Source: Anaerolineae bacterium
GTDB lineage: Bacteria; Chloroflexota; Anaerolineae; CG2-30-64-16
Length of the DNA: 33,768 bases
NCBI GenBank assembly: GCA_025454635.1
Contig: JALOOB010000045.1
Location: 1 to 33,768, forward strand
Reading direction: 5' to 3'
Below the pieces are notes generated by a model. The model worked only from the letters and a program-made list of their open reading frames with translations. It searched no databases and had not been told where the DNA came from. The position numbers and the translations under genes are program-made. This document shows positions 14,934 through 33,768 of the stretch, one piece after another (the first letter of the stretch is position 1; each line of letters opens with the position of its first letter).

Positions 14934-17900
14934 ATGCGCTCACCTACCGCACTTGCGGAGCTTGCCGCGCTCCTGCGCGCGCGCCCGCAGCACGGGGTCA
15001 ACATCGTGACGCTCCACGGCGGCCCCTCTGATTCGCGCGCAGCCCTCGCGCGGCGCGTCGTCGCCGAGGCGGACGATGCCTTCCCTGCCGGCGCGCTCTG
15101 GCTCCACGGCGGGTGCTCCGTCGTGACGCTGACCCTGCTCGCGGAGGCCGAACGGGTGTTGGGCATGGCGCCGTCCCCCGGCAGTGATCTGCCGCGCCGC
15201 GAGCGCCGGGTCCGCGAGTGTCTCAGCGGACACGCGCCGGCGCTGATCGTCCTCGACGGCGCGGCCGGGAAGGACATCCCGCAGTGGCTCAGCGAGCGCC
15301 TCCTCCCGCCTGGCGGTGCGCTGCTCCTGCTCGCCGACGATCCCGCACTGGCCGACCATCTTGCTTCGCTCTCGGTGGCGCTGGACGACCTCAATGGCGC
15401 ACGCGCAGTTCGCCTCGCGGGCCAGTCCGCTGTGTATGAGGCGCTCATGCCCGAGATGCAGTGGCGCTTCCGGTCCCTGGGCGCGTTTGCCTCCGGCCTT
15501 CTCGACCCTCGGCTCGTCGCGCGCGTCTGGGGCGACTCGGTTGATGACGCCCTCGTCGCGCTCGATCACCTCGCCGGGGCCACCCTGCTTGGCCGCGACG
15601 GTTCCGCGCACCGTCTGGAGCCGCATCTTCGGGCGATCGCGAGCGCAGCCCTTGGTGGCGCCGGCCGCGCCGGCGCGGAGCAGCGCCACTGCGATGCCGT
15701 CGTCGCCTTCGCCATCGCCTGCGAGTCGGCTTATCGCTCCGGGCAGGCTAATGCCCTTGCCGAAAGCTGGCCCCAGGTCGCGCTGGCGTGGGAGCGTCTC
15801 TCGCAGCGCGAAGATGCGGCCGCGCGCGCCTCTCTGGACGCGCTGCTTGGCGGCGCATCCTCGTCCATCGCAGCGGTCGCCCCGCCCGGGCTGCGCGCTC
15901 AGTGGCTCGCGCAGGCGCTCCGGCCCGCGATCACACCCGGTCACCGCCGCTGGGAAGCGCGCCACCTTGTCTCACTCGCCGCGGCGCAGCGCGAGCTTGG
16001 CGCGGCGGACGATGCCGCGCGCTCGGCGCGCGAAGCGGTCGCGCTCGCCGCTCAGACCGGCGACGACGCGACCCGCTTTGCCGCCCAGGCGCAGCTTGGC
16101 ATGGCCCTCGTCGCGACAGGCCGCGCATCCGATGCGCTCGGGCCGCTGTCGACCGCCGTCGCATCCGAACCGCTGCAGGGCGATCCCCGCCTGCTGCGCG
16201 AGGTCGCCCGCGCGCTTGCGGACGCGCACGCGCATCTGCGCCGTCCGGCAGACGCCGCAGATGCGCTCGCCGTCTCAGTGCGCGCCTCGCGTCAGCTTGG
16301 CGATCCACAGGGCGAGTTGGCCGATCGGGAGCATCTGGCCGAACTGCTTGCCGCGCAGCCGGGCACGCGCTTCGGCGCGGGCGCGCCGGCCGCCGAAGCC
16401 TACCGGCAGGCGCTTCTCTTCGCGGAGCGGCTCGGGGAAGCCGAGGCCGAGCAGCGTATCGCGGTCCGCCTCGGAGACCTGCGCGCGGACGAGCGGCCGG
16501 AAGAAGCGCTGACCTATTACCTCCGCAGCCTGGCGCTGACCCGGCCCGGCGCGGACGAAGCCGCAGCCGCGGGCCTCCTATGCCGCATCGGGTGGGCGCG
16601 CAACGAGATGGGACAGCCGGACGCGGCCCTCGAGGCATTCGAGCGGGCGGTCATCCTCGCCGGCGACGAGCGGCCCAACGAGGCGCACCGTCGCGTGCGG
16701 CTTTCAGCGCGGATCGGCGTGTCTGACGCGCTTGCCCTGTCGGGCCAGCCCGCCGCGGCCGCGCTCGCCGCGCTCGCCGCGCTGCCGCTGGCGCGCGAGC
16801 TGGGCGACGAGGAAGCGCAGTTGTCCCTCCTAACGCGCGTCGGGGAAGCGCACCTTGCGGCGAAGGAACACGAACCTGCCGCGGGCTGTTTCGTCCCCGC
16901 GCTCGCCATCGCGGGGCGGCTGGGTCGCAAGTCGGAGCGCCTCCACCTGCTGACTGCGCTCGCGCAGGCGCGCCTGGCCCTTGGGTTGCAGGGGGTGGCG
17001 GTCGAGTGTCTCGTCGAGGCAGTTCCGCTCGCGCGCGAACTGGATCGCCCGGCCATTGAGCTTGCTGCCTTGCGCCAGCTGGGCCAGGCGCACTCGGAAA
17101 CGGGGCGGGCGCTCGAAGCGGGCATCTGCTATGAGCAGGCGCTGCGCGTGTGCGAGCGCCTCGGCGACGAAGCCGCCGAGGCCGACATTCTCGTCCGTCT
17201 CGCGGCCTGCCAGCTTGCGCTTTCCCGGCCCCAGGCGGCCGCGTTTGACCTCCGCACGGCCCTGCTGCTGCGCAACGGGAGCGCTACGAAGGACGAGCGG
17301 CTCGCGGTGACGCTTCGGCTCGCGGAGGCCGAACGACGGTCGGGCAACATCGCAGGGGCCATCCGTTCTGCCGACGTCGCGCTCGCGTTGAGCCGCGAGT
17401 TGGGCGATCCCGCCGGCGAGCTTGCCGCGCTGCTGCAACTTGGCGCGGACTACGACGATCAGGGCGAGCGCGATGCCGCGCGCGACGCGTACAGCCACGC
17501 GCTCCAATTGGGTCGCCGCATCGGTGACCGCGAAGCCGAGGCGCCCGTCCTGCGCCGCTTGGGCGATTTCTACCTTGAGACTGGCGACGTCGCGACCGCG
17601 CTGACGTGTTACCGGGAAGCGCTGCCGATGTACGCCTCGCTGGGTGATCCCGGCGCGGAGGGTGCGCTGCGTTACGACCTTGCCGAGTTGGACCTGGCCG
17701 GCGGGAGGTTGGACGACGCCCATGACGGATACCGGGCCGCGCTCGCATGCGCGCGGCAGGTGCGCGACGCGGTGGCGGAGGCTGCCGCGCTGCGCCAGAT
17801 GGCCGCGATCGACCGCGCGTGCGGCCGCGAGGTCGACGCGGCGCATTGGCTGCAGCAAGCCGGCGCGCCGCTGAAGCGCGCGGGCCTGACCGAAGATGAG

Positions 17901-20900
17901 TTGGCGGTGGCGATGGAGCTTGCTGCGCTCTACCTGCGGCTTGAGCGGCCCGCGGAGGCCGCGGAGGCGCACGCTGCCGCCGCGCTGCTTGCTGAAGCGG
18001 TCGGCAACCTCGACGCGCTCGTCGAGGCGCGCGTCAATCTCGGCCGCGCGGCCCTGCAAGGCGGCCGGCCCGCGGAGGCATGCGCGGCGTTTGCCGCGGC
18101 CTTCGAAGCCGCGCGCGCGGGGGGCGCAGGCGATCAGTTCGCGATGCTGGTGGAGCTCGGCGGAAGCCAGCTTGCGACGGGCCGGTGGAGCGCGGCAGTC
18201 GACACGTTCGGCGACGCGCTGGCGACGGCTCGCCAATCCGGCGACGAGCGCCGCGAGTTGCTCGCCCTCACCCGGTTAGGCGAGGCGTGCGTGGGCGCGG
18301 GCGAGGCCGCTTCCGGCGTCGCCTATTTCGAGCGCGCGCTGCCCGTGGCCCGCTCCATCGGTGACCCGGACGCGGAAATGGCGGCCCTGCTCGGACTGTC
18401 CGCCGCGCTCTCCGAGCGCAGCCGGGTGGCCGGCGCAGCCGAGGCCGCGGAGGCCGCGCGCGCGCTGGCCGAGGAACGCGGCCGGCGGGATATCGAGGGC
18501 GCCGCGCTGCTGCGCTCCGCGGAGGCGCGCGCGGCCAACGGTCAGGCCGGTCAGGCGTTGCTGGCATATCAACAAGCGCTCCCACTGCTGCGCGAGGCGG
18601 CAGATCACCAGACCGCGGCCGACGTGTTGCTGGCGCAGGGCGACGCGCTCCTCCAGATGGGCGACGATGAGCAGGCTGCCGCATCGTATCGTGAGTCGCT
18701 GTCGCTCGCCGACCGGCTCAACGACAGGCGGCGACAGGCGGCTGCGCTGCGGCGACTCGGCAAGATGGCCGAGGAAGCCGCGGACCCCCGCACCGCGGCC
18801 GAGCGGTTCGAGGCGCTCCTGTCTGCCGCGCGCGCGCTCGACGACCGGGAGATGATTCGCGCAGCCTTGGTCGGCGCGGCGCGCAACCTGCGCTGCGCAG
18901 GCGACTCCGCGGCGGCGATTCCGTTGTACCGCGATGCGTGGGCCCTCTTCGCGGACGACGGCGACCGGGCGGGCGAGGCGGAGGTGTTGCTGGCCTGGGG
19001 CGACGCGCGCATGGACCTCGCGGAGGCCGAAGAAGCGGCCGCGTGCTACGGGCAGGCCGTCGCGCTGGCGCAGGAAGAAGGTTGGGGCGACCGGTCGGTC
19101 GAGGCGCGGGCGCAGGCGGGCCTGGGCGCGTCGCAGCTCGCGCTCGGTCAGCCGCAGGAGGCGCTCGCGCTGTACGAGAAGGCGCTGCTCCTGGCGCCGT
19201 CCGGCGATGCGGGCGAGACGAGGGCAGCCGCGCTGCTCGGCGCGGGCAACTGCTATCGCGCGCTCGGTCAGGCGGACGCCGCGCTGGACGCGTTCCGCAG
19301 CGCGGCCGCGGCCGCGCGCGCATCCGGCGCGGCCGCAATTGTCTCGCGCGCATCGCTCGAACTCGGCAAGGCGGCCCATGCCGCGGGCGACCGCGAGCAG
19401 GCGCGCGCGTGCCTTGTCGATGCGCTCGCCGCGGCCAACGAAGCGCGCGATCCTCGACTATACGGCGTGGCGCGCATCGCTGCAGCCGACCTCGATGCCG
19501 CGATGGACCTGCCGTCCGCCCTGCTGGGCTACCGGGAGGCGCTCGCCGCTTTGGAGAACACGTCCGATACCGCCGCCATCGCCCGCGCCCGCCTTGCGCT
19601 CGGCGCCGCGCAGCTCTCTTTGGGCGACGGAAAGGCGGCCATCGAAACCTACCGCGCGGTGCTGGACGGGGTCGAGGGACGCGGGCAGCCGGCCGCCGAG
19701 CAGGCTGCGTGGGCCGGGCTGGCGCGGAGCTACGAGGCGACCGGCGCGCAGGCCAAGTGGGCCGACGCCTGGCGCAAGGCGCTCGCGCTGGCCCGCGCGG
19801 CAGGCGACCGCCTCGCGGAACTCCTCGCGCTGCTCGGGCTCGGCGACGCGGCCCTGTCCGCCGGTAAGATGACAGCCGCGGCAAACAACTACGGCGCCGC
19901 GCTGGAGCTTAGCCGTGCGCTGGGGGATAAGCCCGCCGAGCTGCGCGCGCTCCTCGGGCTTGGCCAGATTCCCGAAGGTTCCACGCACTCACGCGCGGCG
20001 GACGCGCCTGAGCGTCTTCTCGCCGCGCTGCCCCTTGCGCGCCAGCTTGCGGATCGCAAGCGCGAAGCCGCAGCCGCGCTGGGTTTGCTCGAGTGCGCGG
20101 TCACAGATGAACAGCGTGCGGAAGCGCTCAAGTCAATGCCGCTCGCGCTGGCCGTCTCGCGGCAGGCGCGGGACCGCCGCGGCGAGCTTGCCGCGCTGCT
20201 GGCTCTCGGCGACGAGGCCGTCGCGGGGGGAGAGCGCGGCGCGGCGATCGACCACTACACGCGGGCGGTTGCGGTGGCCGGCGAACTCGACGATCAGGCT
20301 GCCTCAACGCGCGCCCGCCTCGGCCTCGGCGCGGTTTACACCGCGCTCGGCGAACTCCCGAACGCGGTCGAGCACGACCGCTGGGCCTTGGTGCTGCTGC
20401 GGCAGGCGGGCGACAAGCAAGGCGAGTTGCAGGTGCTCTCTCGGCTGGCGGACGCGGAAGCCGTAACCGGCGAGAACGTCGAGGCCGCGCGGCACTACGA
20501 CCAGGCGTTGGCGCTCGCTCGCGAGCTGGGCGACGAGCAGGCCGAGTTGGCCGCTTTACTGGGGCTTGCGCCGGTGGCGGCAAAGCTGGGTGAGCCGCGC
20601 CGCGCCGCGGATTGCTACCGCAGCGCGCTGCCGCTCAGCCGGAGCGCGCAGCAGCCCGACGCAGAGGCGCGCATCCTCATCGCGCAGGGAGATGCGTGGC
20701 TCGCCGCGGGTGAACCGGTGCAGGCGCTCGAAGGCTACCGCGCCGCACTGGCCGCGCTCCGCAGCGCAGGCGATCGGGCGGGGGAAGCTGCGCTTCTCCG
20801 AACTATTGCCGCCACATGCGCAGGCTCGGGGCGCAACGAAGATGCCGCAGCCGGCTACGAGCAGGCTCTGCCCCTGCTCGATGACGATAGGGCTGCGCGG

Positions 20901-21785
20901 CGGGATGTCCTGCAGCGGTTGGGCGACGCGTACGCTGCGCTCGGCCGACACGACGACGCGCTGCGCGTCTACGGCGAGGCGCTCGCGCTCGCGGTCTCAG
21001 ATGCCGACCATACCGCGGAAGCCGATCTTTCCGGCAAACTGAGCATGGTTCACGCCAGCCTGGGCGACACGCAGCAGGCCATCAGTTACGGCGAGCGGGC
21101 GATGGTGTCCGCGCGGGCGGCGGTCTCCTGGCCGAACCGCGCGCCGGTTCTCCGCACGCTCGGCGACGCGTACGCGGACGCGGGCGATCACGCGCAGTCG
21201 ATGGTGTGCTACCGGCAGGCCCTCTTCCTCAGCCGAGCGGTCAATGACCGGCGCACCGAAGCCAGCCTGCTCAACAGCCTCGGCAACGCGGCCGCGCACC
21301 TGGGCATGCCGAAGGACGCCATCGACTTCTACCTGAAGGCGCTCACCGTCAGCCGGGAGACGCGCGACCGCGCGCTCGAGGGCAACATCCTCAACAACCT
21401 GGGCAACGCCTACGCCGACGTCAACAACATGCAGGCCGCGACCGACTATTACCGGCAGGCGCTGGCGATCAGCCGCGCGCTAGGCGAGCGGCGTAAGGAG
21501 GCCAACCGCCTCGCCAATCTCGGCCTCGCTCTGATGGAGTTGGAGGACACCCGCCGCGCCATCGACTATTACGGCCAGGCGGTCGACCTGTTCGGGGAGT
21601 TGGGCGACCGCGCCAGCAGCGCGCGCCATTCGTGGATGCTCGGCATGCTGCTTCAGCGGAACGGCAACCTGGCCCGCGCGGCCGATGTCATGCAGATCGC
21701 AGTGGATTACGAGAAGGAAACCGGCGCGCCCGACGCGGCCGAGCACGCCGCGCAGGTCGAGCGCCTGCGGCGAACCGTAGCTTGA
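14934..21785 (+). CDS. Giant tetratricopeptide-repeat protein with a degenerate STAND/NB-ARC-like head
   Basis: This 2283-residue protein dominates the window. Residues 1-300 resemble the NTPase head of AfsR/NB-ARC (STAND) regulators in order: a VNIVTLHGG strand, FPAGALWLHGG, the Walker B-like ALIVLD (103-108), LPPGGALLLLADDPAL and the winged-helix-like RFRSLGAFASGLLD. The P-loop is degenerate (GGPSDSRAA at 29-37, no GK[ST]), so ATP hydrolysis is doubtful. From about 340 to 2270 there are roughly 45-50 TPR-type units of about 40 residues (ALPLARELGD..AE..AL..LG). The last few (about 2090-2230) match the TPR consensus best, with LLNSLGNAAAHLG and NILNNLGNAYADV. There is no signal peptide and no membrane segment. 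ATG 14934 has GGGAGG shortly upstream. It is presumably a cytosolic scaffold or sensor; the partner is unknown. It stands alone, convergent with htpG. Confidence 0.88.
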   Translation: MRSPTALAELAALLRARPQHGVNIVTLHGGPSDSRAALARRVVAEADDAFPAGALWLHGGCSVVTLTLLAEAERVLGMAPSPGSDLPRRERRVRECLSGHAPALIVLDGAAGKDIPQWLSERLLPPGGALLLLADDPALADHLASLSVALDDLNGARAVRLAGQSAVYEALMPEMQWRFRSLGAFASGLLDPRLVARVWGDSVDDALVALDHLAGATLLGRDGSAHRLEPHLRAIASAALGGAGRAGAEQRHCDAVVAFAIACESAYRSGQANALAESWPQVALAWERLSQREDAAARASLDALLGGASSSIAAVAPPGLRAQWLAQALRPAITPGHRRWEARHLVSLAAAQRELGAADDAARSAREAVALAAQTGDDATRFAAQAQLGMALVATGRASDALGPLSTAVASEPLQGDPRLLREVARALADAHAHLRRPADAADALAVSVRASRQLGDPQGELADREHLAELLAAQPGTRFGAGAPAAEAYRQALLFAERLGEAEAEQRIAVRLGDLRADERPEEALTYYLRSLALTRPGADEAAAAGLLCRIGWARNEMGQPDAALEAFERAVILAGDERPNEAHRRVRLSARIGVSDALALSGQPAAAALAALAALPLARELGDEEAQLSLLTRVGEAHLAAKEHEPAAGCFVPALAIAGRLGRKSERLHLLTALAQARLALGLQGVAVECLVEAVPLARELDRPAIELAALRQLGQAHSETGRALEAGICYEQALRVCERLGDEAAEADILVRLAACQLALSRPQAAAFDLRTALLLRNGSATKDERLAVTLRLAEAERRSGNIAGAIRSADVALALSRELGDPAGELAALLQLGADYDDQGERDAARDAYSHALQLGRRIGDREAEAPVLRRLGDFYLETGDVATALTCYREALPMYASLGDPGAEGALRYDLAELDLAGGRLDDAHDGYRAALACARQVRDAVAEAAALRQMAAIDRACGREVDAAHWLQQAGAPLKRAGLTEDELAVAMELAALYLRLERPAEAAEAHAAAALLAEAVGNLDALVEARVNLGRAALQGGRPAEACAAFAAAFEAARAGGAGDQFAMLVELGGSQLATGRWSAAVDTFGDALATARQSGDERRELLALTRLGEACVGAGEAASGVAYFERALPVARSIGDPDAEMAALLGLSAALSERSRVAGAAEAAEAARALAEERGRRDIEGAALLRSAEARAANGQAGQALLAYQQALPLLREAADHQTAADVLLAQGDALLQMGDDEQAAASYRESLSLADRLNDRRRQAAALRRLGKMAEEAADPRTAAERFEALLSAARALDDREMIRAALVGAARNLRCAGDSAAAIPLYRDAWALFADDGDRAGEAEVLLAWGDARMDLAEAEEAAACYGQAVALAQEEGWGDRSVEARAQAGLGASQLALGQPQEALALYEKALLLAPSGDAGETRAAALLGAGNCYRALGQADAALDAFRSAAAAARASGAAAIVSRASLELGKAAHAAGDREQARACLVDALAAANEARDPRLYGVARIAAADLDAAMDLPSALLGYREALAALENTSDTAAIARARLALGAAQLSLGDGKAAIETYRAVLDGVEGRGQPAAEQAAWAGLARSYEATGAQAKWADAWRKALALARAAGDRLAELLALLGLGDAALSAGKMTAAANNYGAALELSRALGDKPAELRALLGLGQIPEGSTHSRAADAPERLLAALPLARQLADRKREAAAALGLLECAVTDEQRAEALKSMPLALAVSRQARDRRGELAALLALGDEAVAGGERGAAIDHYTRAVAVAGELDDQAASTRARLGLGAVYTALGELPNAVEHDRWALVLLRQAGDKQGELQVLSRLADAEAVTGENVEAARHYDQALALARELGDEQAELAALLGLAPVAAKLGEPRRAADCYRSALPLSRSAQQPDAEARILIAQGDAWLAAGEPVQALEGYRAALAALRSAGDRAGEAALLRTIAATCAGSGRNEDAAAGYEQALPLLDDDRAARRDVLQRLGDAYAALGRHDDALRVYGEALALAVSDADHTAEADLSGKLSMVHASLGDTQQAISYGERAMVSARAAVSWPNRAPVLRTLGDAYADAGDHAQSMVCYRQALFLSRAVNDRRTEASLLNSLGNAAAHLGMPKDAIDFYLKALTVSRETRDRALEGNILNNLGNAYADVNNMQAATDYYRQALAISRALGERRKEANRLANLGLALMELEDTRRAIDYYGQAVDLFGELGDRASSARHSWMLGMLLQRNGNLARAADVMQIAVDYEKETGAPDAAEHAAQVERLRRTVA

Positions 21786-23870: not shown

Positions 23871-25115
23871 ATGGCGGAGACCTCGCTTTACACCCTCGCC
23901 GTTCATGCGGGCGAGCATACGACGAAAACCACGCCGTTGACCGGCGCAGGCCAGGGCCGCAGCTACCACCCGGTGGTCACGCCGGTGCATCACAGCGTCG
24001 GCTATACTTACGAGGATACCGAAGACCTGGACGCCGTGTTTGCGGGCGCATCGCAAAACCCCGTCTACACGCGCTACGGCAATCCGACCGTGAGCGCCTT
24101 AGAAGCGGCCGTCGCCGCGCTGGAGGGCGGGGCCGCGGCGCTGGCCTACGGCTCCGGCATGGCCGCCATTCATGGCGCGCTGCTGGCCGCGGGCGCGCGC
24201 GCCGGCGCAACGGTCGTCGCCGCGCACGACGTCTACGGCGCAACCTATGCTCTGCTGAGCAAGTTGCTGGCTTCGCAGGGCGTGAAGACGCGCTTCGTCG
24301 ACGTGAGCGATCTTGCCGCAACCGAGGCCGCTATCAAGGAAACGCGTCCCGCCGTCGTCACCGTCGAAACGATCTCGAATCCGTTGCTAAAGGTGGCCGA
24401 CGTTGCAGCCGTGGCCGCGCTCGCTCATGGGGCCGGCGCCAAGCTCATTGTAGACAATACCTTCGCGACGCCGGTTCTGTGCCGCCCGCTCGCGCTCGGC
24501 GCGGACTTCGTCGTCCACAGCGCGACGAAGTATCTGGGCGGTCACGGCGACGTGCTCGGCGGGGTGGTCGTCGTCCGCGATGAGGCGAGCCGCGTCGAGT
24601 TGTACGAGATCAACAAGCTGCTCGGCGCGAACCTCGCGCCGCAGGAGGCGTGGCTCGCGCATCGCGGCATCAAGACCCTCCCGTTGCGGGTCGAGCGCCA
24701 GTGCCGCAACGCGGCCGTCGTGGCGCAATGGCTGGGCGAGCAGCGGAGCGTCTCGCGCGTCTACTTCCCTGGCCTGCCCTCCCATCCGCAGCATGAGCTG
24801 GCGCTGCGGCAGTTCGGCAACGCCCTGCATGGGGCCTCTATGCATGGCGCAATGGTGAGCTTCGACGCGCGGGCTGCCGGCCGCGCCGAAGTTTTCCGAT
24901 TCTTTGAAGCGCTGCGCTTGATCCAGCCCGCCACCACGTTGGGCGACGTTTACACGCTGGCGCTTTACCCGGCCATGTCGTCGCACCGCGCGCTCGACGC
25001 TGAAACCCGCGCGCGCATCGGCATCGGCGACGGGCTGATCCGCCTGTCGATCGGCATCGAGGACCCCGCGGACATTATCGCGGACCTCGATCGCGCCCTG
25101 GCCGTCCTGGCTTAG
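23871..25115 (+). CDS. Cys/Met-metabolism PLP enzyme (cystathionine gamma-synthase/lyase or methionine gamma-lyase type)
   Basis: A fold-type I PLP enzyme of the trans-sulfuration family, about 414 residues. The family marks are PVYTRYGNPT, the PLP-ring region AYGSGMAAIHGALLA, SNPLLKVADV, IVDNTFATPVLCRP and the PLP lysine in HSATKYLGGHGD (Lys220). The C-terminal TTLGDVYTLALYPAMSSH and IRLSIGIEDPADIIADL complete the domain. Family members make or cleave cystathionine, or cleave methionine. The exact activity cannot be told from sequence alone. ATG 23871 follows AGGAG at a long spacing of 14 nt. ATG 23835 is also in frame but lies inside the operator-like palindrome and has no ribosome binding site. 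Confidence 0.9.
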   Translation: MAETSLYTLAVHAGEHTTKTTPLTGAGQGRSYHPVVTPVHHSVGYTYEDTEDLDAVFAGASQNPVYTRYGNPTVSALEAAVAALEGGAAALAYGSGMAAIHGALLAAGARAGATVVAAHDVYGATYALLSKLLASQGVKTRFVDVSDLAATEAAIKETRPAVVTVETISNPLLKVADVAAVAALAHGAGAKLIVDNTFATPVLCRPLALGADFVVHSATKYLGGHGDVLGGVVVVRDEASRVELYEINKLLGANLAPQEAWLAHRGIKTLPLRVERQCRNAAVVAQWLGEQRSVSRVYFPGLPSHPQHELALRQFGNALHGASMHGAMVSFDARAAGRAEVFRFFEALRLIQPATTLGDVYTLALYPAMSSHRALDAETRARIGIGDGLIRLSIGIEDPADIIADLDRALAVLA

Positions 25116-25265
25116 GGCATGTGAAAGGACTGACAAACTGGCGCGCGTAACCGTTCATGATCCGTTCATATGCGGCGGCTATCTTGAAGCCAAAGCTGTG
25201 AAAGGGTGCACGACGAGTCATGCACGAAACTATGGTTGCGGGGCGAGGGGAAACGCGCAAGGCTT

Positions 25266-25294
25266 TTGTTGCCCCCTCGCCTCTATGGTATAAT
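25266..25294 (+). promoter_or_regulatory. Promoter of the response regulator
   Basis: TTGTTG (25266-25271), a 17-nt spacer and consensus TATAAT (25289-25294) preceded by TGG make the strongest promoter in the window, 60 nt before the start codon. Confidence 0.85.
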
Positions 25295-25354
25295 GATGCT
25301 TCGAAGAAACATCGGCCCCCTTGCCATCAGGTTGCCGAGGAGAAGCCCGAAGCC

Positions 25355-26044
25355 ATGCGGATCCTGATCGTTGACGACGACCGTCCCAGCTTGAAGATGA
25401 CGGCCTTTCTGCTGCGCGAAGAGGGCTACACCGTCTTCACAGCGGACAACGGGCAGGAAGCGCTCCGCATGATCGACGAGAAGCAGCCGGACCTGCTGGT
25501 TCTCGACGTGATGATGCCGGGGATGGACGGTTGGGAGGTGACTCGCCACCTGCGCCGCACGACCAACCTGCCGATCCTGATCCTCTCTGCCAAGGGCGAA
25601 ACAAGCGACCGCGTTTTCGGCCTTGACCTGGGCGCTGATGATTACCTGGCTAAGCCATTCGAACCGTCCGAACTGTTGGCGCGAGTGCGCGCCGTGCTGC
25701 GCCGCGCCGAGGCCTTCACATTCGGCGAGCCGCAGAGCCAGCTCACCGTCGAAGGCTTCCGCCTGGACCCGGTCAACAACTCGGTGACGCTGCCAAACAA
25801 CCGCGCCGTCGAGCTCACGCCCATCGAGTTCCGCCTGCTGCACTGCCTCATGCGGAACACCGGCCGGGTGCTCACGCACGAGCAGTTGCTCAGCACCGTG
25901 TGGGGTTACGAATACGAGGGATACTCTAATCAGGTGGCTGTCTACATTCGCCGCCTGCGATCCAAGTTGGAGCCCAACCCCGACGACCCGCGCTACATCG
26001 TCACCGCACGCGGACTGGGCTATAAGTTCGAAACTGGCGCCTGA
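25355..26044 (+). CDS. OmpR/PhoB-family response regulator
   Basis: A two-domain regulator of 229 residues. The receiver domain has the acidic pocket VDDD (7-10), the phospho-acceptor Asp51 in LLVLDVMMPGMDG, and the ILSAKGE and ADDYLAKPFEPSEL switch and lysine segments. The C-terminal winged-helix DNA-binding domain has LTPIEFRLLHCLMRNTGRVLTHEQLLSTVWG and VYIRRLRSKLE...YIVTARGLGYKF. When phosphorylated it should bind DNA and regulate transcription. No histidine kinase gene is adjacent, so it is an orphan here. ATG 25355 starts the conserved receiver and has GAGGAG 12 nt upstream; a longer in-frame start at 25220 would run through the promoter. The secreted-protein cluster begins 80 nt downstream on the same strand. 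Confidence 0.95.
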   Translation: MRILIVDDDRPSLKMTAFLLREEGYTVFTADNGQEALRMIDEKQPDLLVLDVMMPGMDGWEVTRHLRRTTNLPILILSAKGETSDRVFGLDLGADDYLAKPFEPSELLARVRAVLRRAEAFTFGEPQSQLTVEGFRLDPVNNSVTLPNNRAVELTPIEFRLLHCLMRNTGRVLTHEQLLSTVWGYEYEGYSNQVAVYIRRLRSKLEPNPDDPRYIVTARGLGYKFETGA

Positions 26045-26124
26045 TTCTCCTCTGCCGGAAGCAAGATTGCGCGTAGGGGAAGCTCAGCCGGGCGCCTACC
26101 ACGAGTTCTCGAGGTAGCGTAAGC

Positions 26125-29100
26125 ATGTTCCCTGCGCATTGGACTGCGAACCCGCATAGGGCGCGGATTTCAGTCGGTATGCTTCTCTGGCTCCTCATCG
26201 TCATAGCTGCTTTGCAAGGATCGCAAAACGCCCAGGCGTTTGCGGCCGATCAAGACACGAGCCAACCGCACCCCGGCGTGGCCCGTCCTGCAGCTCCACA
26301 GGAGATTATCTGGTCCAACTTCGCCCCAACCGGGTGGATTACGACGTCGCCGTTCAGCGTATCGGTAACCGCAAGTTCAAGCGGCGGCTTGGATACGGGC
26401 GATGCGTATTCGATCAGCACGGACGGAGGGGCAAGTTGGTCCGCATGGACCACCGCCAATCTGAGCATCGATGCGCCCGACGCGTCTACTCACAACCTGA
26501 CTGTCACAAACCTCTCGCTTCCCGACTCCGCCAGCCTCAACTACATTCGCTTCAGGGTTTTCGAGACAGGTGTTGGCGAAGCGATTAGCCCGACGCCATA
26601 CCTGATCCAGGTCGACGCCACGCCGCCCGGCGCGCCCCAGGGCCTGACCCCGAATCCTTCGAGCTGGACCAATCAGAACAGCTTCGCGGTCACCTGGACG
26701 AACCCGTACGACGTGTCGCCCATTGCAGGCGCGCGGTACAAGCTGGACAGTGTGCCTACCGGGCCAACAGACGGCACATACGTTGCCACGACCAGTTCGA
26801 TCTCGAATATCGCAGTGTCGGGCGACGGCGCTCACACGATCTACGTCTGGCTGGTAGACGGGTTTGGACGCGCGGACCATAACAACCGATCCAGCGCTGC
26901 GCTCAGACTCGACACCACGCCGCCTGAGCCGCCGTCACGCTTCTCTGGCTCGCCAGACAGCGCGTGGACCAACGTGAACAACTTCTCGGAAACGTGGAAA
27001 AACCCGAGCGATCTCTCCGGCATTACCGGCGCCTACTATAAGCTGAACATGGCTCCTACGTCGCCGCTTGACGGAAAGTTTGTCAGAACGACTGATACGA
27101 TCACGGGGATCCAGGTGCCCGGCAACGGGCAACACGATATCCATATCTGGCTCGTGGACGCGGCGGGCAATGCCGACTATACCGCTTTCGGAACCGACGC
27201 GGACGTGTTCTGGTATGACGAGACGCCGCCGGTCAGCAGCGCATCGATCACTCCGGCCACGCCGCCGGCAACGGGCTGGTATACAACCAGCGTCACAATC
27301 AGGTTTGCCGCCACGGACCAGCCGGTTGATCCAGCGTACCCACCTGTCGTTTACTACCGGCTCAACTCAGGTGAGTGGACAGCCGCCACCGAACTCAATA
27401 TCGCGGCCGAAGGGTCGCATCGTTTGCTCTACCAGGCGCGCGACAAAGCCGGGAATTCCGAGACCGCGCGTGAAATGCTGATCGGTATCGACAGGACTGC
27501 GCCGACTACGACCCTGACTGCCGACCGGGTTCCCGCCGCGTCGGGTTGGTACACCGCACCGGTCACTTACACCTTGACGGTCACAGATAGTGTTTCCGGC
27601 AACCCCAAGGGCTTCTACCGCGTGAACGAAGGGCCGTGGCAAAACCGTTCTTCGTTTACCCTGTCATCCGAAGGGACCTATCGAATCGAGTACTACGGCC
27701 AGGATGCGGCCGGCAATCGCTCCCCGTTGATGTCCACGGAGGCGCGCGTCGACATCGTCCCACCCGCGACGGGAAGAACGGTGGAAGGCACGACCGGCGA
27801 GAACGGCTGGTACACTTCCGCCGTGACCATGCGCCTCCTGCCGGTCGACACCGTGTCGGGAGTTGCGATGAGCCGCTACCGCACCAACCTGGGGGCATGG
27901 CAGACCGGGACCGAGCTTTCGCTTTCCGATGGCGTCCACGAGGCCGAGTACTACTCGATAGACGTGGCGGGGAACGCGGAGAAAACAGTGACGAGCACGC
28001 TCAAGGTTGACAGAGTCGCGCCCACTGCACCGGTCGCCCTGACGGCCAGCCCAACCGGCTGGAGCCGGACAAACGCATTTGCTGTCCAGTGGACCAGTCC
28101 TGCCGATCTCAGCCTTGTGAATGGCGCATACGTAAAGTTGAGCAATGTCATCTCTGGCACCGCGCCAAGCGGACCGCGTGACGGGACGCTCGTCAGCCAG
28201 ACCAGCCGCATCGAAAACCTTACAGTGCCGGGCGAAGGCGCTTACCGCCTCTATCTCTGGTTACGCGACACGGCAGGCAATGTCGACCACCGATCCGCGC
28301 CTGTCAACGGCCCGGTGCTTCGCTACGATGCGACGCTGCCGGTAACCTCGGCCGAATTGCAGGGGACGGAGGGGGAGCTTGGTTGGTTCCGTTCGCCAAC
28401 GCAAGTCACCTTAACGGCCACCGACACTGCTTCGGGTGTCTCTGCGTTGAACTGGCGCGTGGACGACGGCGCGTGGCAGACCATTGCTGCGGCAACCGTG
28501 AGCTTCACGATCGATGAACCCGGCGAGCATGTGGTCGAGCATTACGCGCAGGACGCGGCCGGCAATCTTGGCGCGCCCGCGCAGTCCTATGTGAAGATAG
28601 ATATGACTGCCCCCGGCGCGCCCGCGGACGTGCGCGCGTTTCCTGCCGGCTGGTCGCAAGTTAACAGCTACCGCATCGAGTGGCTGGAAATGAACGACCC
28701 TTCCGGGATATCGGGTGCATATGTGAAGTTTAATTCTCCGCCCGCGCACTCGACCGACGGCCAATTCTACGCGGGCGAGTCCGTCATCACAGATGTCGCC
28801 ACGCCGAGTGAGGGGAAGCACGCGGTCTACGTCTGGCTTCGGGACAACGCCGGCAACGCCGATCACTCGAGCGCAGTTGCCATAACCGAGGCAATGTGGT
28901 ATGATGCCACTCCGCCCATCACAGATATCTCAGTCGCTGCCACTCCGGGGTCCAACGGCTGGTACGTGGAGCCAGTGACGTTCAACATGAGTGCGGACGA
29001 CGCGACCTCCGGCGTGAAGCACATTCGCGTGCAGGTGGACGACGGTCCGTGGCAAGTGGTGGGCACGACTTATGTTCTGTGGACACAAGGGCGCCACATT

Positions 29101-30132
29101 GTTCGAATCGGCGCCGTCGATCACGCGGGCAACATTGAGACGCCGCATCAATACGAGTTTAAAGTTGACAGCATCCCGCCACTTGCGGTGATTAGTGGCC
29201 CGCACCTGTACGAGTCGCGCACACGATTTACGTTGAACTGGGGCGCGACGGACAACGCTTCCGGCGTGGATGCGTACGATGTGCAGGTGCGCCGGGGTTA
29301 CTCCGCCCCGTGGCAGGCATGGCTGCAGGGCACCCGGCTGACTTCGGCGCAGTTCGACGCCGAGCGGAGCGACACTCTCTTCTTCCGCGTCTTCGCTCGC
29401 GATTCAGCCGGCAACCGCCAAATGCTCGCGCAGGAACTTCGCGTTATGGTCGAGTCTATCGCGAACGGGGGCTTCGAAACCGGCAACTTCAGCAGTTGGG
29501 AAGCTGGCGGCGAGTTGTTCCTGGCCGTCGTGCCGACCCCCGGTCCGAACGATGCGTGGATCACGGCTGCGCGGCTGGGCGACGCGGACTACGGCCCGAG
29601 CTTGCCGCCGGTAGGTATGGTGCCTGTTGGCAGCGCCCGAATCACGCAGAGCATCCGTATCCCGGACGCCAACCAGATGCGCGAGCCAAGGCTCCAGTTC
29701 AGGTATCGCGTGCTGTCTTATGACGTGATGTTCAGTCCGCGCATGCAGCGGTACGTCGATACGCTGGAGGCGACATTGCTTGATGAGCAAGGCAATGAGA
29801 TTGCGATGCTGCTTCGCGCAGGTAATCCCGGCGCTCCGCCTGAGGAGTGGGGTGCGCTGTATGATTCAGGTTGGCAATATGCTGACCTGGACCTCCGACC
29901 CTATGCTGGCCGTTCTGTGACTCTGTCCATCGCGAACTGGAACCGCAACGACAACCTCCTCAACACCTGGAGCTTCGTCGATCAGATCCAGATTCGCGAA
30001 CTGCTGCCGACCTATCTGCCCATCGCCCAACAATCAGGAGTTCCGGGGGGCGCATCTGGCCAGTCTTCGGCGGCGCCGGCAACAGCTTCCCCCTCCGAAA
30101 GCTCGGAAGGCGATTCGGACGGTCTTCGTTGA
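26125..30132 (+). CDS. Large secreted protein with alternating Ig-like/OmpL47-like repeats
   Basis: A 1335-residue exported protein. A signal peptide (ISVGMLLWLLIVIAALQG, likely cut after QAFA near 41) is followed by an N-terminal beta domain. Residues 164-1013 hold about nine units of 85-105 residues, each opening with D.TPP or D.TAP. Two kinds alternate. Type A has WT..N.F.V.W..P.D.S.I.GAYYKL and DGT, then H.IYVWL.D.AGNADH. Type B has GWYT..VT...TATD..SGV, YRVN.G.WQ and EYY..D.AGN, like OmpL47-type domains. The order is A A B B B A B A B. A fibronectin-like unit starts at Asp1015, a lectin-like jelly-roll starts at NGGFETG (1114), and a Ser/Ala-rich tail begins near 1293. There is no sorting motif. 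It is likely a surface or extracellular adhesin-like protein, first in a four-gene run. Confidence 0.85.
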   Translation: MFPAHWTANPHRARISVGMLLWLLIVIAALQGSQNAQAFAADQDTSQPHPGVARPAAPQEIIWSNFAPTGWITTSPFSVSVTASSSGGLDTGDAYSISTDGGASWSAWTTANLSIDAPDASTHNLTVTNLSLPDSASLNYIRFRVFETGVGEAISPTPYLIQVDATPPGAPQGLTPNPSSWTNQNSFAVTWTNPYDVSPIAGARYKLDSVPTGPTDGTYVATTSSISNIAVSGDGAHTIYVWLVDGFGRADHNNRSSAALRLDTTPPEPPSRFSGSPDSAWTNVNNFSETWKNPSDLSGITGAYYKLNMAPTSPLDGKFVRTTDTITGIQVPGNGQHDIHIWLVDAAGNADYTAFGTDADVFWYDETPPVSSASITPATPPATGWYTTSVTIRFAATDQPVDPAYPPVVYYRLNSGEWTAATELNIAAEGSHRLLYQARDKAGNSETAREMLIGIDRTAPTTTLTADRVPAASGWYTAPVTYTLTVTDSVSGNPKGFYRVNEGPWQNRSSFTLSSEGTYRIEYYGQDAAGNRSPLMSTEARVDIVPPATGRTVEGTTGENGWYTSAVTMRLLPVDTVSGVAMSRYRTNLGAWQTGTELSLSDGVHEAEYYSIDVAGNAEKTVTSTLKVDRVAPTAPVALTASPTGWSRTNAFAVQWTSPADLSLVNGAYVKLSNVISGTAPSGPRDGTLVSQTSRIENLTVPGEGAYRLYLWLRDTAGNVDHRSAPVNGPVLRYDATLPVTSAELQGTEGELGWFRSPTQVTLTATDTASGVSALNWRVDDGAWQTIAAATVSFTIDEPGEHVVEHYAQDAAGNLGAPAQSYVKIDMTAPGAPADVRAFPAGWSQVNSYRIEWLEMNDPSGISGAYVKFNSPPAHSTDGQFYAGESVITDVATPSEGKHAVYVWLRDNAGNADHSSAVAITEAMWYDATPPITDISVAATPGSNGWYVEPVTFNMSADDATSGVKHIRVQVDDGPWQVVGTTYVLWTQGRHIVRIGAVDHAGNIETPHQYEFKVDSIPPLAVISGPHLYESRTRFTLNWGATDNASGVDAYDVQVRRGYSAPWQAWLQGTRLTSAQFDAERSDTLFFRVFARDSAGNRQMLAQELRVMVESIANGGFETGNFSSWEAGGELFLAVVPTPGPNDAWITAARLGDADYGPSLPPVGMVPVGSARITQSIRIPDANQMREPRLQFRYRVLSYDVMFSPRMQRYVDTLEATLLDEQGNEIAMLLRAGNPGAPPEEWGALYDSGWQYADLDLRPYAGRSVTLSIANWNRNDNLLNTWSFVDQIQIRELLPTYLPIAQQSGVPGGASGQSSAAPATASPSESSEGDSDGLR

Positions 30133-30189
30133 CCTGGAGCGCTGCGCGCTTAGTGGCCGCTTGTCCGCCGGCGCGCGGCGGAAGCTGAA

Positions 30190-32205
30190 ATGACCTCGTC
30201 GCAAGAGCCGGTAGCCGGAAGGGACATGAACGAGATTTCAGCGGACGGGCGCAAGGGTGAAATCCTTCGGCCAAAGGGCTTCAACGCGCCGACAGCCAGG
30301 CCATCCGATCCCGCATCTCCTTCCGCTCGCGGCCAGTTGGCCGAGATGTTGCGCCCCGACGAGGCGGAGGCCCTCTATCATGAGGGAATGGCCGCCTATC
30401 AACACCGGCACTGGCGCGAGGCTCTGGAACGCTTTACGCGGCTCCAGGAACTGCAACCCGCCCGTCCTGGTCTTGATGCCCTGATCGAAGAGGTCCGCTG
30501 GTTCCTGCAACTCGAGGCTGCCGCGCCCCCGGGGCGGGAACTGGCTCCGCGCAGCCCTGGCCCTGGTCTGACCCTCGCCGGCTTCCAAAAACTATTACTA
30601 TCGCATCGCGGGCTCCTGGCTGCGCTTGCGATACTTGTCGTGGCCGCGACCTTACTGGTTACCTTCCGAGCCCGGCTCCCGTTGAATTGGCTGCCCTGGC
30701 GCATCGACGCTGACCAGGAGATCGACCAGCTTTACAACGAGGGACAGGGACGTTTGGCCGTCGGCGACTATGAAGGAGCCAGGGCCATGTTCCAGAAGAT
30801 GCTCGCAATCTCGCCCGGCAACGAGGCTGCTGAGACAGGCATAAGCCTTGCGCAGCGCCAACAAAGGCTCGCCGACGCCTACGCAGCTGCAGGCGCAGCC
30901 ATTGCTGAGGAGGACTGGGATCGCGCGGGCATTGAACTCGCGAATGTCCTGGCCGTCGACCGAGATTACGCAGATGCGGAAGCGCGCGCCGAGTTCGTGA
31001 AGCAGCAGCAGCGGTTGAAAGGCTTGTACGAGGATGGCGCTCGTCTCCTCGGTTTGGGGCAGTGGCCGGAAGCGATTACCCGCTTTCAGACGGTTCGCCG
31101 TCTGGACCCCGGCTACCGAACCGAGGCGGTAAGGGCCTTCCTGCTCGCCGCCTATTCCAATGCGGCAGAGTCGCTCCTCGCGAGACGCGGTGATGACATT
31201 GAGGCAGTCACGCAGGTTGTTGGGTATTACGAGCGAGCGCTCGACGTCGATCCGCAAAACCAACTTGCGATGGATGCCTATCGCCTGAGCCGCTGGTACC
31301 TTGACGGCCTGCAGGCCATCGCAGATAACGACCGGGCCCGGGCGCGCGATGCCTTTGTCGCGCTCGAGGTTGAGGCGCCGAACTACGCGAACGGCGCCGC
31401 TCGCCGGAGACTTTACGAACTGGCTCTGGCCGAGGGGCAGGATGCCTTAGCTGCAGGGAACAACGCATTGGCGCTGGAATGGTTCGACCGCGCGCTTGGC
31501 TTTGGGGTTGCCGATGCGGGCGCAGCGCTGCGGGGCAGACAGCTGGCCCTGGCTGTTACTGCCACGCCTACCCCAACGCCGCCGCCCACCCACACGCCGT
31601 CGCCGTCACCTGCGCCCTCACCGTGGGCAATTGTGGCTGCCGGCGCTGTGAGCGCTTATGCCGGCCCGGATGACGCTTATCCCACCGTCGGGCAGTTGGC
31701 GCAGGGGAGTGAGGTCACGATCACTGGCCGGCGCCCGGACGGCTTGTGGCTCAAAGTGTGTTGCGTGGACGGCCGGGAGGGTTGGGTGGCCGCATCGCAG
31801 CTCGAAGTCAGCGGCTCGTTGGCGCTTGCGCCCGAGATCATCCCGCCGACCGCAACCGCGTTGCCAACCGTGGCGCCTGCAAGTCCCGAACCGACCGCAA
31901 CGCCCGAGCTATTCGCCTGCATTTCCGGTTATGTCCTCAATTCTGCCGGCGCTGTTGGTTTTGAGGACTGGTTGGTCACGGTGCAGGAGCCGACTGGAGC
32001 CCGTTACAACCTGAGAACGAACGCGGATGGCTTCTACCGGTTTGATGATCTGGCTGTGGGCGCCAACATTCTCAGTGTAGCTGTCGCAGATGGTTGGCGC
32101 GCAATTAGCCCGCAGAGGGTGACGGTTGAAGTGGCTGCCGCCGAATATTGCGTCGAGGTCGACTTCTGGATGAGGCCAGGTCCTCCTCCGACGCCCGTCC
32201 GCTGA
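30190..32205 (+). CDS. Membrane-anchored TPR protein with SH3b and carboxypeptidase-regulatory-like domains
   Basis: A 671-residue protein. An N-terminal cytosolic part contains one TPR-like unit (AEALYHEGMAAYQHRHWREALERF). One membrane helix follows (about 142-159, LLAALAILVVAATLLVTF). The external part has several TPR units (LYNEGQGRLAVGDYEGARAMFQKML and later ones), a Thr-Pro-rich linker (TPTPTPPPTHTPSPSP), an SH3b domain (from Trp479, AYAGPDDAYPTVGQLAQGSEVTI...GWVAASQL) and a carboxypeptidase-regulatory-like beta domain (ISGYVLNSAGAVGFEDWLVTV, NADGFYRFDDLAVG). SH3b domains often bind cell-wall or surface polymers. ATG 30190 has GGAAG just upstream. The stop lies 2 nt before the next start, so the genes are probably cotranscribed. 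Confidence 0.85.
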   Translation: MTSSQEPVAGRDMNEISADGRKGEILRPKGFNAPTARPSDPASPSARGQLAEMLRPDEAEALYHEGMAAYQHRHWREALERFTRLQELQPARPGLDALIEEVRWFLQLEAAAPPGRELAPRSPGPGLTLAGFQKLLLSHRGLLAALAILVVAATLLVTFRARLPLNWLPWRIDADQEIDQLYNEGQGRLAVGDYEGARAMFQKMLAISPGNEAAETGISLAQRQQRLADAYAAAGAAIAEEDWDRAGIELANVLAVDRDYADAEARAEFVKQQQRLKGLYEDGARLLGLGQWPEAITRFQTVRRLDPGYRTEAVRAFLLAAYSNAAESLLARRGDDIEAVTQVVGYYERALDVDPQNQLAMDAYRLSRWYLDGLQAIADNDRARARDAFVALEVEAPNYANGAARRRLYELALAEGQDALAAGNNALALEWFDRALGFGVADAGAALRGRQLALAVTATPTPTPPPTHTPSPSPAPSPWAIVAAGAVSAYAGPDDAYPTVGQLAQGSEVTITGRRPDGLWLKVCCVDGREGWVAASQLEVSGSLALAPEIIPPTATALPTVAPASPEPTATPELFACISGYVLNSAGAVGFEDWLVTVQEPTGARYNLRTNADGFYRFDDLAVGANILSVAVADGWRAISPQRVTVEVAAAEYCVEVDFWMRPGPPPTPVR

Positions 32206-32207
32206 TA

Positions 32208-33611
32208 ATGGCTGAGTATTTTGACCCTCATTGGGCATCTTCTACGTCACCCCGGCGCCGAACATTGGTGTTGAGCCTCGTGGCCGCATCCACTCTGTTC
32301 CTCTTACCGCTGCTTGCGGCGCCCCTCGTGGGGGCTCGGAACGGCGAAGGGTGGCGTTCTCTCGGCCTGCGCGGCGAGACGGTGCTGGAGCTAAGGGCGG
32401 TCAGCGACGAAAACGGCACTCAGCTCTATGCTCAAACGCTGACGGGGCTGTGGCGTAAGCCAGTTGAGGCGGCGCAGGGGAAGAACGACGAGTGGACCCG
32501 CATCGATCATGGCCTGCCGCGATCGGCACTCGGCGCGCCGCTGCTTGCCGCATGGTGTAACGTTCCGGGCGAGCCGCACCGTCTCGTTGCCCTTGCCGGC
32601 AACAGCGATTCCCGGCAGCTCTTTCGCAGCGACGACCGCGGCTCCTCCTGGCTTTCGGTCGGCCCCGCCCCCGGCCAGTCTCGTTCGCCGGCCATGACTG
32701 TTCTGCCTGGGTCAGAGCCAAGTGACGACCGCATTATCATCGCGACCCAGGCGCGTGTTCAGCGCAGTCTGGACGGCGGCTCAACCTGGTCTCCGGGCGG
32801 CGCGTGGCCTAGGGAGGGCGCTTCGGCCGAGCCGGTGCTCGAGTTCGCCGCCGAGATGACCGGGTCCGGCAGGCTGCTGGCCCTCGGAGGTTCGGGCCGC
32901 CTTTGGCTCAGCCCAAGCGGGGGCCTTTCGTGGCACGAGATCGGCGGCGATCGCGCTTATACCGCTCTGGCTGCCGCGCCATCCTTCGGCCTCGCCGTCT
33001 GGGTGGCTACTGCGGACGGGCTCTTGCGCACCAACGATGAAGGACGCAGTTGGTCGCCGCGGCCGCTCCCGAGCAAGGCCGGCGCCATCCTGGGTGGCGA
33101 GCAGATGATCCAGGCGCTGGCAGTCGATCCCGTCGTCTCCGACGTCATCTATGCGGCCGCGATAGGCGGCGGAGTGTACCGGCTGGGTAGCGGTGAGACG
33201 GCCTGGTTGTCGCTTGCCGCGCCGCCCTCGAACGTGATTTCGTTGGTGGTGGACCCGGGTGCCCGCGACGCGCTGTATGCCGCGACGGATGATGGGGTGT
33301 GGCTGCGACCCGTCGTCGCGGATCAGCCAACCGCGACCCCATCGCCCACGCCGACCCTTATTCCGTCCGCGACGCGGACGCCGTCGGCTACGATGACGCC
33401 AACCGCGACACCCAGCCCGACACCGACCGTGACGCTTACGGCCACGCCGACAGCCACGGCGACCGCGACCGCGACCGCGACGGCCAGCGCAACTGCCACA
33501 CCGACGCTTCGGCCGACCCGGCCGCCTACGAGTACGCCGACGGTCACACGTTCGGCGCCGCCGCCGCCGGGCGGGGCAACACCAACTCCAGTCGGCAACA
33601 TCCTTAGATAG
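32208..33611 (+). CDS. Exported BNR-type beta-propeller protein with a Thr-Pro stalk
   Basis: A 467-residue protein with an N-terminal export or anchor segment ([28 protein letters not shown]). The body contains repeated Asp-box (BNR-like) motifs: [30 protein letters not shown] and [10 protein letters not shown], plus a degenerate RLGSGETAW. They indicate a propeller like those of sialidase and photosystem-assembly (YCF48-type) proteins. Nothing indicates an enzyme activity. From residue 372 on it is a low-complexity TPTPT/TATAT stalk of about 95 residues with no sorting signal. ATG 32208 follows the previous stop by 2 nt; a longer frame to 32148 overlaps the upstream gene. The next gene starts 2 nt after the stop. 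Confidence 0.85.
33321..33560 (+). repeat. Thr/Pro/Ala-coding low-complexity repeat
   Basis: Short imperfect tandem units of CGACC, ACGGC and GCGAC coding for Thr-Pro and Thr-Ala. The densest part is near 33441-33500. It is a candidate length-variable region. Confidence 0.8.
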
Positions 33612-33613
33612 CG

Positions 33614-33768
33614 ATGAGCAGCATGACCGCAGACGGAACTATCGCCGTCCCCACCGCCTTCTCTGCGTCCTCCCCGGTGCGCTTGCTTCGCCGGGTAGAC
33701 GTGCCCTCGCGCTGGACGCTCCTGCTGATCGCGCTCTGGGTGCTCTACCGCACGCGTGGGCCGGGCAT
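33614..33768 (+). CDS. Partial membrane-protein gene, cut by the window end
   Basis: An open frame from ATG 33614 (a second ATG is at 33626) runs to the window edge for 51 codons. It begins [17 protein letters not shown] and reaches a hydrophobic stretch [12 protein letters not shown] preceded by basic residues ([11 protein letters not shown]), suggesting a first membrane helix with the N-terminus inside. No family can be named from this much. It starts 2 nt after the propeller gene, so it probably belongs to the same transcript. There is no clear ribosome binding site, which fits translational coupling. Confidence 0.6.

Follow-up and report, generated by a model that had tools for sequence, protein, structure and literature searches.

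LpqB is a propeller protein. With MtrA and MtrB it forms a three-component system of actinobacteria (PMC10714768, PMC5487470), in which it modulates the activity of MtrB (PMC5487470). YycH and YycI act on a WalK-type kinase as accessory proteins (PMC7355866), and CpxA-CpxP and QseE-QseG are envelope-stress systems in which kinase activity is set by an exported accessory protein (PMC4160245, PMC6075780). The locus described here lies in a stretch of 33,768 nucleotides (nt) from an Anaerolineae bacterium (the window), which is the entire contig C289 of a metagenome-assembled genome (MAG; 4.55 Mb, 77% complete). The last gene run of the window encodes a response regulator (RR), three exported proteins (g1, g2 and g3) and the start of a sensor histidine kinase (HK; g4), and is almost certainly a five-gene two-component signaling operon.

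The module resembles MtrAB-LpqB in that an OmpR-family RR and a sensor kinase are encoded with an exported accessory protein. It differs in gene order (mtrA-mtrB-lpqB against RR-g1-g2-g3-HK in all complete loci), in having two further exported partners, and in a kinase without an extracytoplasmic domain; LpqB is a lipoprotein, whereas the module propeller, g3, has no cysteine in its N-terminal 50 residues. With WalRK-YycHI it shares an RR and a PAS-containing kinase related to the YycF and WalK models, single-pass accessory proteins and a cell-wall theme, but g1 to g3 had no match to YycH or YycI, and accessory domains and gene order are different. CpxA-CpxP and QseE-QseG, from diderm bacteria, have a single small accessory protein each and are likened to the module by role, not by homology. 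Hybrid two-component sensors of Bacteroides (PDB 3ott, 3va6) sense through extracytoplasmic propellers and matched the sequence of g3 weakly (E 1e-4); their propellers lie inside the kinase polypeptide, whereas that of the module is a separate gene.

The RR scored below the cut-offs of MtrA (234.7 vs. 300 bits), YycF (229 vs. 340) and PhoB (215 vs. 296), and the kinase below those of MtrB (172 vs. 450 bits), WalK (253 vs. 725) and PhoR (237.7 vs. 334.2). No known name applies, because kinase and RR fell under every curated equivalog cut-off compared. The module appears to be analogous to MtrAB-LpqB or WalRK-YycHI and a member of neither, and literature searches on this operon, which covered open-access papers only, found no description of it.

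The kinase gene and the conserved gene order

The RR (229 amino acids (aa), OmpR/PhoB family; 25355..26044, + strand) contained Response_reg (115 bits) and Trans_reg_C (102 bits), both over gathering scores. Its start at 25355, conserved in relatives, is likelier than the in-frame ATG at 25220, because relatives begin M-R-[IV]-L at the position equivalent to 25355. The genes g1, g2 and g3 follow on the same strand, and g4 (33614..33768, +) is cut by the contig end, leaving an open fragment of 51 aa. The two last junctions are of 2 nt each (stop ending at 32205 and ATG at 32208 for g2/g3; stop ending at 33611 and ATG at 33614 for g3/g4), and a search of the + strand from 25000 to 33768 showed no intrinsic terminator.

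Sequence searches turned up two relatives, L002 (Anaerolineae MAG MO66) and L003 (HGW-Chloroflexi-1), in which the gene run ended with a sensor kinase; in L002 this kinase had GAF, PAS, HisKA (70 bits) and HATPase_c (112 bits) domains. The g4 fragment matched the N-terminal part of the relatives' kinase (53% over 32 aa), and the final 99 nt of the window (33670-33768) coincided exactly with the end of C239, a further contig of this genome that bears the rest of the kinase. An exact overlap of contig ends is the usual mark of a single locus broken by the assembler, and g4 and the kinase remainder on C239 evidently form one locus divided between contigs. Because the fourth gene is a sensor kinase, the unit is read as a signaling operon with three exported partners.

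The membrane part of the kinase, conserved over the aligned kinases, comprised about six helices within the first 180 residues, joined by short loops, and hydropathy over the same alignment gave no extracytoplasmic domain. A kinase with about six helices and no such domain is unlikely to sense the outside alone.

The order RR-g1-g2-g3-HK was complete and on one strand in 24 loci of 12 families of the class Anaerolineae, and loci on truncated contigs carried the corresponding part of it; locus L055 had no detectable g3. This arrangement lies far beyond chance expectation. The loci were picked by similarity to g2, so the count applies to the g2 family and not to every kinase of this type. Gaps were mostly short between g2 and g3 and between g3 and HK, and variable between RR and g1 and between g1 and g2 (starts approximate). 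Pairwise protein distances were correlated among the five genes (r 0.83-0.94; RR-HK r 0.91; g2-HK r 0.94); conserved linkage and co-divergence (r 0.91) give indirect support to a putative phosphotransfer from this kinase to this RR.

The earlier note had described four open reading frames (ORFs) downstream of an orphan regulator, none with a recognized enzyme role. Its ORFs, their coordinates and both 2-nt junctions are borne out by the ORF coordinates. The RR is not an orphan, because the kinase closes the same gene run, and the absence of an enzyme role fails with the cut fourth gene, a GAF-PAS-HisKA-HATPase sensor kinase once completed through the C239 overlap and the relatives. Gene order, the loss of which in relatives would have spoken against the unit, was kept in the 24 complete loci.

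At E <= 1e-20, 75 of 249 genomes of the class had relatives of g2, the weaker matches including a paralogue (e.g., L077), and a profile search of 400 genomes across the phylum found the module in three only, all Anaerolineae. In three genomes of the same family, of which two are 99% complete, g2 had no close match. Weak g2-like matches were present in many genomes of the class, and a second RR-kinase pair lay near the distant g2 paralogue of L077 (G000 C74, 5826-15775). The gene 5' of the RR was an exported M1-type peptidase gene in three family members (L041, L042, L168) and a cystathionine lyase-like gene in the window, where a 2283-aa ORF (14934-21785) also lay upstream of the module.

Predicted operator and candidate targets

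A predicted operator and promoter lies upstream of the RR (25153..25185, +). It consists of a direct repeat of 11-bp period, GTTCAT-N5-GTTCAT (25153-25169), N10 and a -10-like TATCTT (25180-25185); the window reads TTCATGATCCGTTCATATGCGGCGGCTATCTT at 25154-25185, and the composite box is TTCAT-N6-TTCAT-N10-TANNNT. Sites of OmpR/PhoB regulators are built of 7-bp motifs with a 4-bp spacer, and the PhoP box of S. coelicolor is GTTCACC-N4-GTTCACC (PMC4832192). The module box has the OmpR/PhoB layout, a sequence near that PhoP box and a -10 at fixed distance.

The composite box was found 5' of the RR without mismatch in 9 of 37 loci and with at most one mismatch in 12 of 37 (shuffles 0-0.02). The motif was derived from these same upstream regions, so this test is not fully independent; strand and genome-wide tests are nearer to being so. 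Across 629 kb of module loci, 26 matches (<=1 mismatch) fell on the module strand and 0 on the opposite strand. Forty genomes were selected before the genome-wide scan, from g2-relative and phylum profile searches. The exact box had 54 sites in the 20 module-bearing genomes (17/20 hit) and 8 sites in the 20 without the module (5/20), an approximately seven-fold difference, and a reversed control pattern gave 1 site in each group. The exact direct repeat was present once in the genome of the window, and in families f2, f18, f23 and f42 a box lay just 3' of the kinase. The box upstream of the RR is very likely the operator of the module; its binding by this RR, and the direction of regulation, are presumed from sequence.

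Within the family, extra boxes preceded four exported propeller genes in three genomes, and also genes for a PepSY-like exported protein (by sequence reading) and another RR, and a radical-SAM gene. Such propellers were present in 6 of 7 module-bearing family members (absent from the incomplete genome of the window) and in 0 of 3 members without the module. In other families, boxes preceded genes for exported proteins, priming sugar transferases (PF02397, two families), a GT4 glycosyltransferase and a Gfo/Idh-type oxidoreductase, and a helix-turn-helix gene. A radical-SAM gene stood under the box in two families (56% identity). Some boxes preceded genes without obvious relation, and some of the sites will be chance matches. 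Autoregulation via the box and a regulon directed at surface genes are strongly suggested. Clusters of large exported propellers with 'YLPL'-type C-terminal ends, some under a box, were observed in L152 (G131 C15) and L154 (G193 C210).

Exported proteins and their terminal arginine

The proteins g1, g2 and g3 share no sequence with one another. Their description in the earlier note as exported or membrane-bound holds, with N-terminal or transmembrane segments in all three by hydropathy. The exported immunoglobulin (Ig)/OmpL47-type repeat protein g1 (1335 aa; 26125..30132, +) had one N-terminal hydrophobic segment (residues 15-33) and, in domain searches, Big_13 and six OmpL47-type stretches. 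It passed the domain model NF047446 (254 vs. cut-off 40 bits) and stayed below the equivalog NF047441 for the OmpL47 surface protein of Leptospira (131.6 vs. 250 bits); plasmid tblastn with g1 returned generic Ig-repeat matches only. Its C-terminal domain (29443..30042, +), conserved among g1 homologues, is predicted to be a CBM4/MAM-like jelly-roll of carbohydrate-binding type (AlphaFold2 pLDDT 86), with CBM4, CBM16 and gingipain adhesin domains as best Foldseek matches (TM-score 0.4-0.6). Pfam and hmmsearch of PDB sequences gave nothing solid for this domain, and fold comparison alone was informative.

The single-pass membrane protein g2 (671 aa; 30190..32205, +) has the order TPR, transmembrane segment, TPR, SH3b (SH3_3) and CarboxypepD_reg-like domain, the last under the Pfam cut-off (28.1 vs. 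32.3 bits). Its transmembrane segment (residues 141-159; 30610..30666, +; hydropathy 2.63) was the only one, placed after the first TPR block, in nearly all homologues. The membrane-tethered Ycf48/GH74-like beta-propeller g3 (467 aa; 32208..33611, +) had one N-terminal transmembrane segment (residues 20-38, by hydropathy) and BNR/Sortilin/Ycf48-like repeats under Pfam cut-offs. Its AlphaFold model is a propeller, in fold close to Ycf48 (TM-score to target 0.67-0.75), and it scored 10.6 bits against the Ycf48 equivalog NF010237 (cut-off 326). Its Thr-Pro stretch, previously taken for a stalk, is a C-terminal tail and not a linker between anchor and propeller. Genes for helix-turn-helix, B12-type radical-SAM and PMT-like membrane glycosyltransferase proteins recurred 3' of the kinase in L063, L064, L066, L068-L072 and L076, and GT2 and ArnT-like genes in family f1; such glycosyltransferase genes may indicate that Thr-Pro tails are glycosylated.

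All three proteins of the window end in Arg (codons at 30127-30129 for g1, 32200-32202 for g2 and 33606-33608 for g3). Terminal Arg was found in 37 of 39 g1, 29 of 31 g2 and 23 of 26 g3 homologues (together 89/96), and in 1 of 37 RR and 3 of 24 HK (together 4/61). Against a background of 17% in neighboring ORFs, binomial probabilities were 2e-15 or less, although the sequences, being related, do not count as independent. Each of the six Arg codons and each of the three stops was in use, which places the constraint on the residue. A by-product of ATGA overlaps or of Shine-Dalgarno sequences was tested and rejected, as codons, stops and spacing to the next gene vary; for g1 it fails also because the start of g2 is often tens to hundreds of nt away.

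About 10 of 30 other exported proteins (crude gene call), and several of the propeller targets, also end in Arg, which may reflect a more general tendency among the exported proteins of these genomes. No C-terminal arginine sorting signal was found in the open-access literature searched, and to our knowledge no family has this signature. Tentatively, and with the odds against it, terminal Arg could be a new recognition signal that needs no membrane segment, by which a common partner reads all three proteins and assembles one surface sensor; that partner would be a processing enzyme, an anchor or the kinase complex.

Possible role of the operon

On sequence evidence, the whole is best explained, with fair probability, as a two-component system that regulates itself and has three exported proteins as accessories. 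The operon probably keeps watch on the cell surface and controls genes for surface proteins and polysaccharides, and g1 to g3 would, on balance, be sensory accessories. With its repeat rod and carbohydrate-binding-like head, g1 would read the outside on behalf of the kinase together with g2 and g3; the three may recognize glycans of the wall or matrix, pass on the condition of these layers to the kinase and set its activity, in the manner of LpqB, YycHI, CpxP and QseG. With TPRs on both membrane sides and SH3b outside, g2 could bridge to the cytoplasmic GAF-PAS part of the kinase, and g3 could take part in surface reading as a membrane-tethered propeller. The kinase would phosphorylate the RR, a tandem RR dimer would bind the 11-bp direct repeat, which would stand in for the -35, and the RR would activate its own operon and the surface-protein and polysaccharide genes.

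The main rival, of lower probability, is that g1 to g3 are output: structural or matrix proteins in the operon of their controller, with the kinase sensing a membrane or cytoplasmic signal through its helices, GAF and PAS. The exported proteins may have an adhesive or matrix role; the kinase has GAF, PAS and a conserved membrane domain, and exported propellers are plausible as outputs because the other box targets are similar surface proteins, propellers among them. However, three unrelated exported genes are fixed between RR and HK in 12 families while the other targets scatter, the exported genes co-diverge with the kinase (g2-HK, as above), and the conserved TPR block of g2 before the transmembrane segment, presumably on the cytoplasmic side, would be odd in a pure surface protein.

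A phosphate-starvation system of the PhoR-PhoB or PhoP type, with a PHO box controlling surface genes, is improbable. The box does resemble the S. coelicolor PhoP box (PMC4832192), and the kinase core scored highest against the PnpS, WalK and PhoR models, but nothing reached the PhoB, PhoR or PnpS cut-offs. This alternative is disfavored because a separate, PhoB/PhoR-like RR-HK pair lies directly 5' of pst-phoU in the genome of the window (contig C236; L186, 2901-12844) and because no pst locus tested in the family had a box. An envelope assembly or adhesion system with a regulator adjacent by accident is very improbable, for although all three exported proteins have adhesion-like or binding-like modules, the run closes with a sensor kinase and every complete locus has RR and HK on either side of the unit; the surviving form of this reading, a surface structure controlled by the flanking RR and HK, is the output alternative. 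The single unnamed envelope assembly or adhesion system of the earlier note stands as a conserved envelope-related unit (24 loci, 12 families, co-divergence), and not as primarily a machine for assembly or adhesion.

Some observations weigh against a self-regulated system with exported accessory proteins. In the MAG consensus the kinase copy on C239 (L079, minus strand, first ~2.4 kb) is interrupted by two frame breaks, unlike the kinases of relatives, which read open in a single frame; the two breaks are either assembly errors or decay. Around one third of module loci had no box found near the module, several families have the box downstream of the kinase and not upstream of the RR, and the only other exact composite box in the genome of the window precedes a KorA-like gene, probably by chance.

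Anaerolineae are abundant and mostly uncultured, and have an unusual envelope. No description of how they monitor it was found in the open-access literature searched, and for this class the module supplies one signaling unit, together with a defined operator candidate and an initial prediction of its regulon. It would also be an example of a kinase that lacks an outside domain and is found together with three exported proteins, whose shared terminal Arg is a possible pointer to a new C-terminal signal.

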